DNA from: Gimesia aquarii
GTDB lineage: Bacteria > Planctomycetota > Planctomycetia > Planctomycetales > Planctomycetaceae
NCBI RefSeq assembly: GCF_007748175.1
Contig: NZ_CP037422.1
Span: 4,666,334-4,730,333, forward strand
DNA length: 64,000 bases
Direction of reading: 5' to 3'
Shown: positions 10,868-14,172 of the stretch, in pieces
How positions within the stretch are numbered: the first letter of the stretch is position 1
How the letters are laid out: the number at the start of each line of letters is the position of its first letter
Position numbers and translations under genes: made by a program
The notes under the pieces: model-generated
Told to the model about the DNA's origin: nothing
The model's database searches: none
What the model saw: the letters and a program-made list of their open reading frames with translations, nothing else

Positions 10868-11755
10868 TTACATTAAATGCGTTTTCATCCACGTTAAATA
10901 CTCGCTAGCGTATGCATTCAGATTATCGAGACTACCCCCACCTCGGATGGGAGAACACATTTCGTAAGTTGCGGTGCCGTTGAACCCACCCTCTTTTAAC
11001 CCGTGAAAAAAAGCAGAATAATCAATAAAACCGGTGCCAAATTTGACTGCGCGGACCATATCTGGTTGTTGTCTTTGATAATTGATTAACTCTGGTTGGT
11101 ACGCAAAGCGGGGCATTTTGATGTAATCAGCACTGGTCGTGATTGCTGTATAAGGAGCCATTTTACGCGCCGCTTCGAACAGGTTTTCATTTCGCAGAGC
11201 AGGGGACCAGGCATCAAAGCCGAGTTTACAGTTTGGGCGGTCAATATCGTGGAACAGTTCCAGGAGGGCATCCGAGTGAACTCCGACATCGTGGTGGTTT
11301 TGGACAGCAATCGTGACATCGGATGTGGCAGCACGGTCGCAACATTCCTGAATAGCGGAGACTACCTGACCCCACAGAACGTGAGGCATTTGTAATCCAG
11401 CATCGTAAGCGGTAAAGAGACGCACTGTAGATGCTCCAAGTTGTTGTGCAAGATAAACCAGCTGTTGCACATACTGTATTTGCATTTCCAGAAAAGGGAC
11501 TTCGGCGGCTCCCGTTCCAGAAAAGTCGGTATAGCCACCAATGATTGAACATTTTATTTGATGCTCATGGAGCGCACCTTGAATCGACTCGATTTCTTCG
11601 GGTGTGACATCGAGTGGAGATAGATGAGGCCGCTTACCCATTAACATTACCGAATCATAGCCCAACTGAGCCGCTTGCACGATGAAGTCATTCACACTCA
11701 ATGTATGTTGACCCCAGAAACCGGCATAGCTTACGGAAAAGAGACACAGTTTCAT
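10868..11755 (-). CDS. Sugar phosphate isomerase/epimerase-like TIM-barrel protein
   Basis: A 295-residue protein of the xylose-isomerase-like TIM-barrel superfamily (AP-endonuclease 2 fold). The pattern of metal ligands is visible in TIAVQNHHDVG, KLGFDAWSP and GTATYEMCSP. GGAG lies seven bases before the ATG. It begins only 49 bases after the stop of the DAHP synthase gene, so the two probably share a transcript and its attenuator. Enzymes of this fold include sugar isomerases and also 3-dehydroshikimate dehydratases. The operon context makes a role near the shikimate pathway conceivable, but I see no signature that proves it. Confidence 0.8.
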   Translation of the reverse strand: MKLCLFSVSYAGFWGQHTLSVNDFIVQAAQLGYDSVMLMGKRPHLSPLDVTPEEIESIQGALHEHQIKCSIIGGYTDFSGTGAAEVPFLEMQIQYVQQLVYLAQQLGASTVRLFTAYDAGLQMPHVLWGQVVSAIQECCDRAATSDVTIAVQNHHDVGVHSDALLELFHDIDRPNCKLGFDAWSPALRNENLFEAARKMAPYTAITTSADYIKMPRFAYQPELINYQRQQPDMVRAVKFGTGFIDYSAFFHGLKEGGFNGTATYEMCSPIRGGGSLDNLNAYASEYLTWMKTHLM

Positions 11756-11804: not shown

Positions 11805-12821
11805 CTATCCTAGTTCTTTTCCAACAGCTTCCGCAACTTTGCGACAGGCTTGCATTGTTTCTGCGAACGCTTGTGGTGTGAGAGATTGGGCTCCATCACT
11901 CATTGCGCGAGAAGGATCAGGGTGTACTTCGAGAATTAATCCATCGCAGCCCGCCGCAATTGCAGCAGCACACATTGGGGGAACAAGACTTGCGATACCT
12001 GTACCATGGCTTGGGTCAATAACAACCGGTAGGTGGGTACGTTCATGTAAGTAGGGTACGGTTGCCAGGGGAAGTGTGAAACGAGTATGAGTTTCGAAGG
12101 TGCGAACCCCACGTTCACAAAGAATGACCTGTTTGTTTCCTTGATCAAGAATATATTCAGCGGCAAGCAGAAACTCTTCGATTGATGCCGATGGGCCTCG
12201 TTTTAACAAGACAGGGAGTCGAGTTTCACCGACTGCTTGCAAGAGATGATAGTTTTGCATATTGCGGGCACCGATCTGCAGTACATCCGCATATTGACTA
12301 AGCATTTCAACATGATGGGGGGTCATGACTTCAGTAACAACAGCCAACCCCGTTTCTTCTCTCGCCAGGGCTAAAAGTTTCAAGCCTTCTTCTTTCATTC
12401 CCTGAAAAGAGTAAGGGCTGGTTCGTGGTTTGAAAGCTCCCCCACGCAGTCCTGTCGCTCCTGCCGCTTTTACCTGATGAGCGACTTGCAGAATTTGTTT
12501 TTCACTTTCGACAGAACAGGGACCAGCAATCACTCCCACATGAGAGCCACCGATCTTCAGATTTCGAGTTGAGACAATTGTAGGTTCTGGTTTCGTTTCT
12601 TTACTGGCTACTTTATAGGGCGCGACGATCGGAACGACCTTTTCTACTTCTTCGCACGATTCGAGTTCCGTTTGGTGTCTGTCCCGTTTTACGCCAGCCG
12701 CTGCGATGACGGTGCGTTCTTCGCCAACGATCACATGGGCTTTCAGACCCATTTCTTCGACACGCCTGACCATCGCCTGTACCATCTCTTCGGTGGCATG
12801 CGGTTTCATTACTACAATCAT
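11805..12821 (-). CDS. aroF: 3-deoxy-7-phosphoheptulonate (DAHP) synthase, AroF/type I-beta
   Basis: This enzyme condenses phosphoenolpyruvate with erythrose 4-phosphate, the first step towards Phe, Tyr and Trp. After an N-terminal ferredoxin-like regulatory domain (about residues 1-70, MIVVMKPHATEEMVQAM) comes the catalytic barrel with VIAGPCSVES, RGGAFKPRTSPYSFQG, LQIGARNMQNY, LLKRG and VIDPSHGTG. This two-domain form is the Thermotoga/Bacillus-type enzyme, in which the N-terminal domain confers feedback inhibition. Transcription appears to be controlled by an attenuator with an aromatic leader peptide in the 280 bases before the gene. The gene probably forms an operon with the TIM-barrel gene that follows. 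Confidence 0.95.
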   Translation of the reverse strand: MIVVMKPHATEEMVQAMVRRVEEMGLKAHVIVGEERTVIAAAGVKRDRHQTELESCEEVEKVVPIVAPYKVASKETKPEPTIVSTRNLKIGGSHVGVIAGPCSVESEKQILQVAHQVKAAGATGLRGGAFKPRTSPYSFQGMKEEGLKLLALAREETGLAVVTEVMTPHHVEMLSQYADVLQIGARNMQNYHLLQAVGETRLPVLLKRGPSASIEEFLLAAEYILDQGNKQVILCERGVRTFETHTRFTLPLATVPYLHERTHLPVVIDPSHGTGIASLVPPMCAAAIAAGCDGLILEVHPDPSRAMSDGAQSLTPQAFAETMQACRKVAEAVGKELG

Positions 12822-12856
12822 GACATTGACTCTTTTCTATTTCAGTTTCAGGGAAT

Positions 12857-12890
12857 AAAAAAAGCCCTGTAACCAGTAAGGTTACAGGGC
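12857..12890 (-). terminator. Attenuator terminator in the aroF leader
   Basis: Read on the minus strand, an 11-base-pair perfect stem (GCCCTGTAACC with GGTTACAGGGC), a TTACT loop and seven T form a strong intrinsic terminator. It ends 35 bases before the aroF start codon and begins 20 bases after the stop codon of the leader peptide, so it lies inside the aroF transcript instead of ending a gene. Confidence 0.85.
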
Positions 12891-12910
12891 CAATCGAATT
12901 TTATGTTTGT

Positions 12911-13045
12911 TCAACTGCTATGAACGGTATATTTTCGATCGGTCAGGTAACCTGATGTGGTAAACCAATAGCCAAAAAAGTGCCAAGGTGAGTAAGAACT
13001 CAACTGCACAAAATTAAAGCTAAAAGTACCAGACCGATGTATCAC
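12911..13045 (-). CDS. Aromatic-rich leader peptide of the aroF attenuator (44 aa)
   Basis: A GTG start with GGAG seven bases upstream opens a frame of 44 codons that ends 20 bases before the terminator stem. Twelve of the 44 residues are Phe, Tyr or Trp. Residues 18-28 read YSPWHFFGYWF, seven aromatic residues out of eleven, and contain all three end products of the pathway begun by the next gene. This is the design of amino-acid biosynthetic leader peptides: scarcity of charged Phe, Tyr or Trp tRNA would stall the ribosome in this cluster. The peptide itself probably has no other function. The reading is my own translation; no other start in the region gives a comparable peptide. Confidence 0.75.
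   Translation of the reverse strand: MIHRSGTFSFNFVQLSSYSPWHFFGYWFTTSGYLTDRKYTVHSS
12941..12953 (-). promoter_or_regulatory. Candidate antiterminator segment in the aroF leader
   Basis: AGGTTACCTGACC, codons 31-35 of the leader peptide, can pair with GGCCCTGTAACCT (12879-12891), the 5' arm of the terminator: ten of 13 positions, seven of them consecutive. Pairing would prevent the terminator. The same bases also form a small self-hairpin (12943-12955). Confidence 0.5.
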
Positions 13046-13106
13046 GGAGAAACTCCAAAACAATTAAAAATATCAAATTCTAGAAAGATCTTCCTAGATA
13101 GAAATC

Positions 13107-13136
13107 ATAATACTCCCGTCTACTGACTCAAGTCAA
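13107..13136 (-). promoter_or_regulatory. Sigma-70-type promoter of aroF
   Basis: On the minus strand TTGACT is followed after 18 bases by TATTAT. Initiation a few bases downstream would give a leader of about 280 nucleotides that contains the leader peptide and the terminator. It lies just after the stop codon of the upstream gene. Confidence 0.65.
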
Positions 13137-13173
13137 CAGACATTCTGAAAAGAATTTTGATGTGTTTTTATTG

Positions 13174-14172
13174 TCAGGATGAAGACTCGTTGGGCTTTCG
13201 TTTTCTAAGTTTGGAAAAACTAACCGATTGATTGTTTAGGGATAAATGAGATTTTTTAGAGCTTTTGTCGAAGTTTGAGTTTAGAGACGTAGGCTCATGT
13301 ATATCAATTTCTAACGAAGAATCAAATAAGAACGAACTAAATTTATCGGGTAAACGATCCAGAGTCGTTTCCGGGTGAATTCCACTCCGTTCCAGTCGAA
13401 GTTGATGAATTGATTTCATGCTAGAAGAGTGATTGAAGCATTCAGAGGGGTAGCATGCCATAATAGCTCCCAGCATCAATTCCCATTGATTTCCTATTTT
13501 GCTCGAGTGGCTACCTGGAAAAGAGATCCGTAACCCCGCGGTAATCAAATCCCAGATTTGTATCGGATGATTGGCATTCAGATTTGTTGACTGGTCCTCG
13601 CCAAAATCCTGGGAGCGGGCACCATCATGAGCGAATTCTTCAAGTCCAAATCTTAAGACGAGCTGTCCCAGCAGCAGGTCTGTCCAGCGTTCGATAGAGC
13701 GTCTCGTGCGGTTGATTCGTTTTAAGGTCTCCAGACTCAAGTACTTCTCTGATACTAGAATAATCAAAGCCAATCGTTTAACTTCAAGAGATGCCAGAAA
13801 AAGATTTCTGGCAATTGGCTCTGCCTGACATTGATTCCGTCTCTTATCAGCTGCTGTTAGAATAGCAGTAGCAACTCGAATCAGCATTTCTTCGGCAAAG
13901 AATTCCGTGAGGATAACTTCCAACTCTTTTTCAGAGATTTCAGTATGATGATTATCGCTGGTCAAGGGAGTGAAGTATTTGCGTCTTTGCTTTAGGTGTT
14001 CCTGCCCATGAAACCAGAAATCATAGAGCGCCGTCGGAGGGAACGGTCTTATACCTTCTACCAGTGAAAGGCTTTGTGATGCAATTAAGGCAGTGACTTC
14101 GGCAGTTAATTGTGAGTTCAAGACGATACCATTTTGCTTAAAGAATTCAAAAATTGATGAATGAGAAATCAC
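13174..14172 (-). CDS. Hypothetical soluble protein, unknown family
   Basis: A 332-residue protein without signal peptide or membrane segments. Residues 1-210 are predicted mostly helical, with a basic TRRSIERWTDLLLGQLVLRFGLEEF segment that could be a helix-turn-helix or protein contact region. The last 90 residues are rich in Ser, Asn and Lys and look disordered. I do not recognise it. It is transcribed in the same direction as aroF, but the aroF promoter begins right after its stop codon, so the two units look separate. Confidence 0.65.
   Translation of the reverse strand: MISHSSIFEFFKQNGIVLNSQLTAEVTALIASQSLSLVEGIRPFPPTALYDFWFHGQEHLKQRRKYFTPLTSDNHHTEISEKELEVILTEFFAEEMLIRVATAILTAADKRRNQCQAEPIARNLFLASLEVKRLALIILVSEKYLSLETLKRINRTRRSIERWTDLLLGQLVLRFGLEEFAHDGARSQDFGEDQSTNLNANHPIQIWDLITAGLRISFPGSHSSKIGNQWELMLGAIMACYPSECFNHSSSMKSIHQLRLERSGIHPETTLDRLPDKFSSFLFDSSLEIDIHEPTSLNSNFDKSSKKSHLSLNNQSVSFSKLRKRKPNESSS

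Follow-up and report, generated by a model that had tools for sequence, protein, structure and literature searches.

A Phe/Tyr/Trp leader peptide upstream of the DAHP synthase gene aroF in Gimesia aquarii and other Planctomycetota probably controls a trp-type attenuator

In Gimesia aquarii, a short reading frame rich in aromatic codons and a terminator-like hairpin lie between a promoter-like site and aroF, the gene for DAHP (3-deoxy-7-phosphoheptulonate) synthase. Does this leader sense the end products of the pathway that aroF opens? The window analyzed here is a stretch of 64,000 nucleotides on contig NZ_CP037422.1. An earlier note on it had proposed ribosome-mediated attenuation at this locus. 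The sequence and its comparison with relatives revealed the anatomy of the leader, its conservation and its co-variation. They indicate that the leader is very probably a trp-type ribosome-mediated transcription attenuator, which would sense Phe, Tyr and Trp at the entry to the pathway. The leader elements (12857-13136) and the two genes downstream are listed here in the order of transcription.

13107..13136, minus strand: promoter-like site TTGACT-18-TATTAT, from a sequence scan
13053..13056, minus strand: Shine-Dalgarno GGAG, 7 bases 5' of the GTG, read from the sequence
12911..13045, minus strand: leader peptide ORF with GTG start, 44 residues (12 aromatic) and TGA stop
13025..13036, minus strand: segment 1, putative 5' half of a 1:2 hairpin with segment 2 (duplex -13.4 kcal/mol)
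12962..12985, minus strand: aromatic codon core WHFFGYWF, kept in the genus
12941..12952, minus strand: segment 2, putative antiterminator half, within the ORF and 9 nt 3' of the core, from pairing tests
12880..12891, minus strand: segment 3, the terminator 5' arm, from a hairpin search
12857..12874, minus strand: segment 4, the terminator 3' arm plus a run of seven T, from a hairpin search
11805..12821, minus strand: aroF, DAHP synthase with a ferredoxin-like domain, 338 residues (NF006421, PF00793, PF18152)
10868..11755, minus strand: xylose-isomerase-like TIM barrel protein, directly 3' of aroF (PF01261)

The letters were rechecked against the earlier description. The promoter-like site, the GTG frame preceded by a Shine-Dalgarno, the 44 residues with 12 aromatic ones, the seven T and the 35 bases separating the T run from the aroF ATG (12821) are all present. 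The terminator had been given as 11-bp. The hairpin and its seven T (12863-12857) were borne out; it counts 12 pairs, 7 of them G-C (12891-12863). A segment had been said to pair with the terminator arm at 10 of 13 bases. This is close to what we found: 9 of 12 bases of segment 2 (12952-12941) pair with the 5' arm in a duplex, and 11 pairs form when the fold ends before segment 4. The leader RNA folds better than 200/200 dinucleotide shuffles (z -4.55). Promoter-like sites in the region number 4 against 6.3 expected by chance and terminator-like sites 1 against 4.1, no excess in either case, so the argument against chance rests on relatives.

The aroF product scores 488 bits against NF006421 (cut-off 335). 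The TIM barrel gene follows aroF after 49 bases and is perhaps in one transcript with it. Just upstream of the promoter, a 332-residue ORF (13174-14172, minus strand) matches nothing in Pfam or NCBIfam. The leader peptide likewise has no matching family in either collection. An Rfam search of 12500-13500 gave sub-threshold matches only. The trpB motif RF04312, likewise a hairpin plus terminator, reached 30.1 bits where its gathering threshold is 59, and no T-box model is among the 10 matches (E up to 10).

Within the genus, the locus hardly changes. aroF is found in all 17 searched genomes (partial in G005). The promoter-like site TTGACT-18-TAT[TG]AT, the GGAG seven bases 5' of the GTG, the core W-H-[FL]-[FL]-[GS]-Y-W-F-T and the terminator are each kept in 17/17, and W21, H22, Y26, W27 and F28 of the peptide are invariant. 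The terminator and antiterminator stems hardly vary among genus members. The pN/pS ratio is 0.89 across the leader ORF and 0.78 in the core, values in which coding constraint is not separable from RNA-level constraint. The leader sequence is conserved as RNA too, which prevents a demonstration of codon constraint inside the genus.

Escherichia coli trp-type leaders follow a scheme of 1:2, 2:3 and 3:4 helices. The segments of the aroF leader suggest the same course of events. RNA polymerase would start near 13100, and a ribosome would trail it along the leader ORF. When any one of the three charged tRNAs (Phe, Tyr or Trp) is scarce, the ribosome would stall in the aromatic codons, leaving segment 2 free. 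Free segment 2 would capture segment 3 while segment 4 is still to be transcribed, and the polymerase would continue into aroF. When all three are plentiful, the ribosome would reach the stop codon and cover segment 2, the 3:4 terminator would form, and transcription would end before aroF. If there is no translation, segment 1 would pair with segment 2, and the terminator would form too. Judged by ribosome footprint sizes, a ribosome stalled in the core should leave most of segment 2 free, and one at the stop codon should cover it. One peptide would in this way read three end products where the shared pathway begins. From this arrangement we infer where transcription starts, that the ribosome stalls, that the terminator works and how each amino acid acts.

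The earlier note expected conserved aromatic codons in relatives, and took their absence, or that of the terminator, as evidence against attenuation. We searched with a strict detector, which looks for an ORF with at least five F/Y/W per 14 codons whose stop is at most 110 nt before a folded hairpin plus T run. A start codon was not required in the runs on the 49-genome set and the phylum sample; it was required for database loci, for controls and in a looser detector. The leaders of the 49-genome set also satisfy the start-codon requirement (36/36). A close aroF orthologue is present in 49 of 59 searched genomes. The leader lies 5' of aroF in 36 of these 49, G. aquarii included: 17/17 in the genus, again with its own genome, and 19/32 elsewhere. 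The aromatic codons thus do recur in relatives, their order and identity drifting, and 36/49 genomes keep the layout. Among the 13 strict-negative genomes, G024 has a leader by the looser detector and G031 by eye, G028 is cut by a contig end, and 10 are without leader.

Further samples extended this spread. In a phylum sample, 23/159 genomes pass E 1e-120 for aroF, and 17 of these were new to the survey. The leader is found in 9/17, six by the strict detector and three (G169, G149 and G131) by eye and then by the looser detector; 6/17 are without leader and 2/17 cannot be judged. Contig ends leave only a terminator, whole or partial, in G028 and G088, and no aroF start was located in G111. A named collection held at least 591 loci, of which the 80 best were taken. 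By the strict detector, 28 of these 80 are positive, three of them on contigs already covered by the genome searches. By title, 26/49 planctomycete loci are positive and 23/49 negative, 2/6 loci with no group name are positive, and none of 25 from other groups is. The positive titles, for bins that can be mislabelled, include Rhodopirellula, Blastopirellula, Bythopirellula, Pirellula, Planctomicrobium, Roseimaritima sediminicola, Thermoguttaceae, Isosphaeraceae, Phycisphaerales and Phycisphaeraceae. The leader of L121 was also met by the looser detector. One match outside the phylum, L145 (labelled Nitrospinales), is a weak looser-detector match with a poor-looking hairpin and was dropped; L107 and L137 were left out of the counts on the same grounds. 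Since the loci compared were the top 80 out of 591 or more, absence of the leader outside the phylum is only indicated.

Two observations concern the surroundings of aroF in relatives. In G020 (G020:C1:1007560-1010874), the gene immediately 5' of the aroF leader, in the same orientation, is ilvB. In family f2 genomes (L046, L048, L049), a recurring GGAGGTGATCGCGTG-like stretch, followed by CCAGAGG.GGCT and CGACGGGTTGCC, lies 5' of aroF; it is perhaps another small ORF or element. Separately, records titled Candidatus Kuenenia stuttgartiensis (L093 and L103) carry an aroF 80% and 67% identical to that of the window, and L093 at least looks like a mislabelled bin.

Controls of the strict detector were empty. 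None of 112 dinucleotide shuffles is positive, nor is any of the 28 reverse strands taken from loci with a leader. The other aroF type, a paralogue about 46-51% identical, has the leader in 0/27 upstream regions (21 + 6).

A set of 56 leaders was used to compare peptides and RNA. It holds one leader for the genus of G. aquarii and was deduplicated for that genus and the three identical contigs alone. G031 and L116, leader-like by eye with four aromatic residues, lie outside it. Phe, Tyr and Trp all occur in the last 30 residues of 50/56 leaders; five have Phe and Tyr, and one has Phe and Trp. Trp is present in 51/56. Both Phe codons and both Tyr codons are used. The best stretch has 7.1 of 14 codons aromatic, compared to 1.4 and 2.2 when it is read in its two other frames, the stretch being chosen for its frame. 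Phe, Tyr and Trp interchange at each aligned position. The alignment indicates that the peptide is conserved as an aromatic stretch and not as a sequence, as codon sensing predicts.

Such peptides could also act through nascent-chain arrest: the aromatic peptide itself would stall the ribosome when it senses a metabolite or free amino acid, and the stall would set the RNA switch. A nascent-peptide stall responding to tryptophan is found in tnaC. Several features of the 56 leaders would suit an arrest peptide: their aromatic-rich content, their narrow distance to segment 2, the string [FWY][FWY][TS], which occurs anywhere in frame in 33/56, and Phe as the final aromatic residue ahead of segment 2 in 39/56. 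However, to our knowledge arrest peptides need fixed residues, and the three aromatic residues replace one another at every aligned position. We regard arrest as improbable.

Codon sensing by attenuation also makes a demand on the RNA, that segment 2 compete with the terminator. In the 56 leaders, segment 2 starts at a median of 9 nt past the core (0-30 nt in 44/56) and ends at a median of 16 nt upstream of the stop codon's last base. When the RNA is folded before segment 4 exists, 2:3 is formed in 53/56; in the full-length fold, the terminator (3:4) is formed in 50/56. In 47/56, the terminator hairpin on its own has no energy advantage over the segment 2-3 fold; which of the two prevails must then depend on kinetics and on the ribosome.

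The earlier note had also called for compensatory base changes. The terminator and the competitor segment do change together, both in stem columns and in arm swaps. With 50/56 leaders anchored, up to six pair types are seen per stem column in the 3:4 and 2:3 helices. In the arm-swap test, which draws on nothing selected by the detector, the 105 nt 5' of each hairpin were searched for their strongest pairing with its 5' arm, and arms were exchanged between leaders. Own pairs in the 56 leaders average -16.9 kcal/mol and swapped pairs -13.7. After removal of row and column means, 0/20000 permutations were as good as own pairing, as in a first run on 22 leaders (0/20000); for 1:2 pairing in the 56 leaders the count was 9/20000, weaker than for 2:3; the leaders share descent, so these counts are inflated and are not probabilities. 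The window pairing itself was mediocre in the 22-leader run: of the 22 arms tried with the window's segment 2, its own came 11th, and of the 22 segments tried with its arm, its own came 20th.

These results bear on a simpler explanation, that the 5' UTR holds nothing more than a terminator or a processing hairpin, and the ORF is there by chance. The terminator is strong and the in-genus pN/pS is near 1, as this explanation would have it. It leaves unexplained that the aromatic ORF and the competitor segment recur across genera despite diverged sequence, and it is opposed by the detector controls (0/112 shuffles) and the arm swaps (0/20000). We consider it even less likely than arrest. That the leader ORF mainly serves translational reinitiation into aroF, and not transcription termination, is the least credible of all: short leader genes near structural genes are common, Planctomycetes included, as the account in PMC4833913 has it, but the leader stop in the window is 89 bases from the aroF start, with the terminator and T run between. 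Recurring aromatic codons and a co-varying competitor and terminator instead argue for ribosome-mediated attenuation, as the earlier note had read the locus. An ORF of end-product codons with its Shine-Dalgarno, a terminator before the gene, a co-varying 2:3 pairing and a 1:2 hairpin are all present in the sequence.

Is aroF the only gene in the phylum with such a leader? In a 19-genome panel, the strict detector found none before trpE (30 loci of 36 matches, 17 of them over the family cut-off), hisG (19 loci) or the prephenate dehydratase gene pheA (18 loci). None was found before ilvB (19 of 20 loci examined). These zeros are not proof of absence, because the strict detector, with its demand for a T run, missed several leuA leaders that a later detector picked up, and the genes may not head operons.

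A Leu version of the strict detector found leaders before leuA in 7/17 genomes, with 1/102 shuffles and 0/17 reverse strands positive; one, G045, is doubtful, since its hairpin is more than 500 nt from the gene. Without the T-run rule, a Leu-rich peptide plus hairpin was detected in 12/17 planctomycete genomes, G045 not included. The 12 loci are L245 (G000), L246, L248, L251, L252, L253, L255, L256, L257, L258, L259 and L260. This version was positive in 0/17 ilvB upstream regions and 1/17 reverse strands. When arms were permuted, 1/20000 permutations were as good as own pairing. Four of the 12 leaders belong to family f3, which has six genomes. In f3, termination before leuA is less certain, because the hairpins other than the one in G053 end in poorer T runs. 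The Leu-rich leuA leader appears to be another attenuator of the phylum.

An attenuator of the DAHP synthase gene, aroR-aroF of Corynebacterium glutamicum, was reportedly described by Neshat et al. 2014. It is the closest known system. Its peptide contains Phe-Tyr-Phe, and the attenuator is described for Phe limitation (PMC11802643, PMC4046766). Both systems place an aromatic-codon leader before a DAHP synthase gene, and they probably share ribosome-mediated attenuation. The planctomycete leaders are set apart by their Trp (51/56) and their phylum, as far as the description of aroR in these sources extends. E. coli trpL and pheL have the same leader ORF, competing helices and terminator before the gene; they respond to one amino acid each and act on a branch, whereas the planctomycete leader is located on the shared first step, a comparison limited to the account in PMC11802643. 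A Shewanella study deals with RNA upstream of aroF and cites a tyrosine-tRNA attenuator from a 1980 E. coli paper (PMC2659441). This is DAHP synthase attenuation too, with one amino acid and, in that account, no leader peptide.

The earlier note knew of no such leader before an aroF-type gene in planctomycetes. Its remark holds in part: a DAHP synthase attenuator is already known from C. glutamicum, and the phylum looks new. Among the matches listed from the open-access literature, with the leader-gene tables of PMC4833913 outside its scope, no amino-acid attenuator in planctomycetes was found. What appears to be new is the phylum, the recurring mixture of Phe, Tyr and Trp, and the breadth; the mechanism is ordinary.

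It is conceivable, and we suggest it tentatively, that an old, phylum-wide attenuation guards pathway entries: an any-of-three Phe/Tyr/Trp alarm on DAHP synthase and a Leu leader on leuA, the latter in family f3 too. A leader for three amino acids at the shared entry contrasts with the single-amino-acid leaders on branches. The switch needs a ribosome right behind the polymerase. If the attenuator operates as proposed, transcription and translation would be coupled in bacteria for which a spatial separation of the two has been proposed. Such coupling is said to have been questioned for Gemmata obscuriglobus by Gottshall et al. 2014. The aroF leader is thus relevant to the question of transcription-translation coupling in Planctomycetota.
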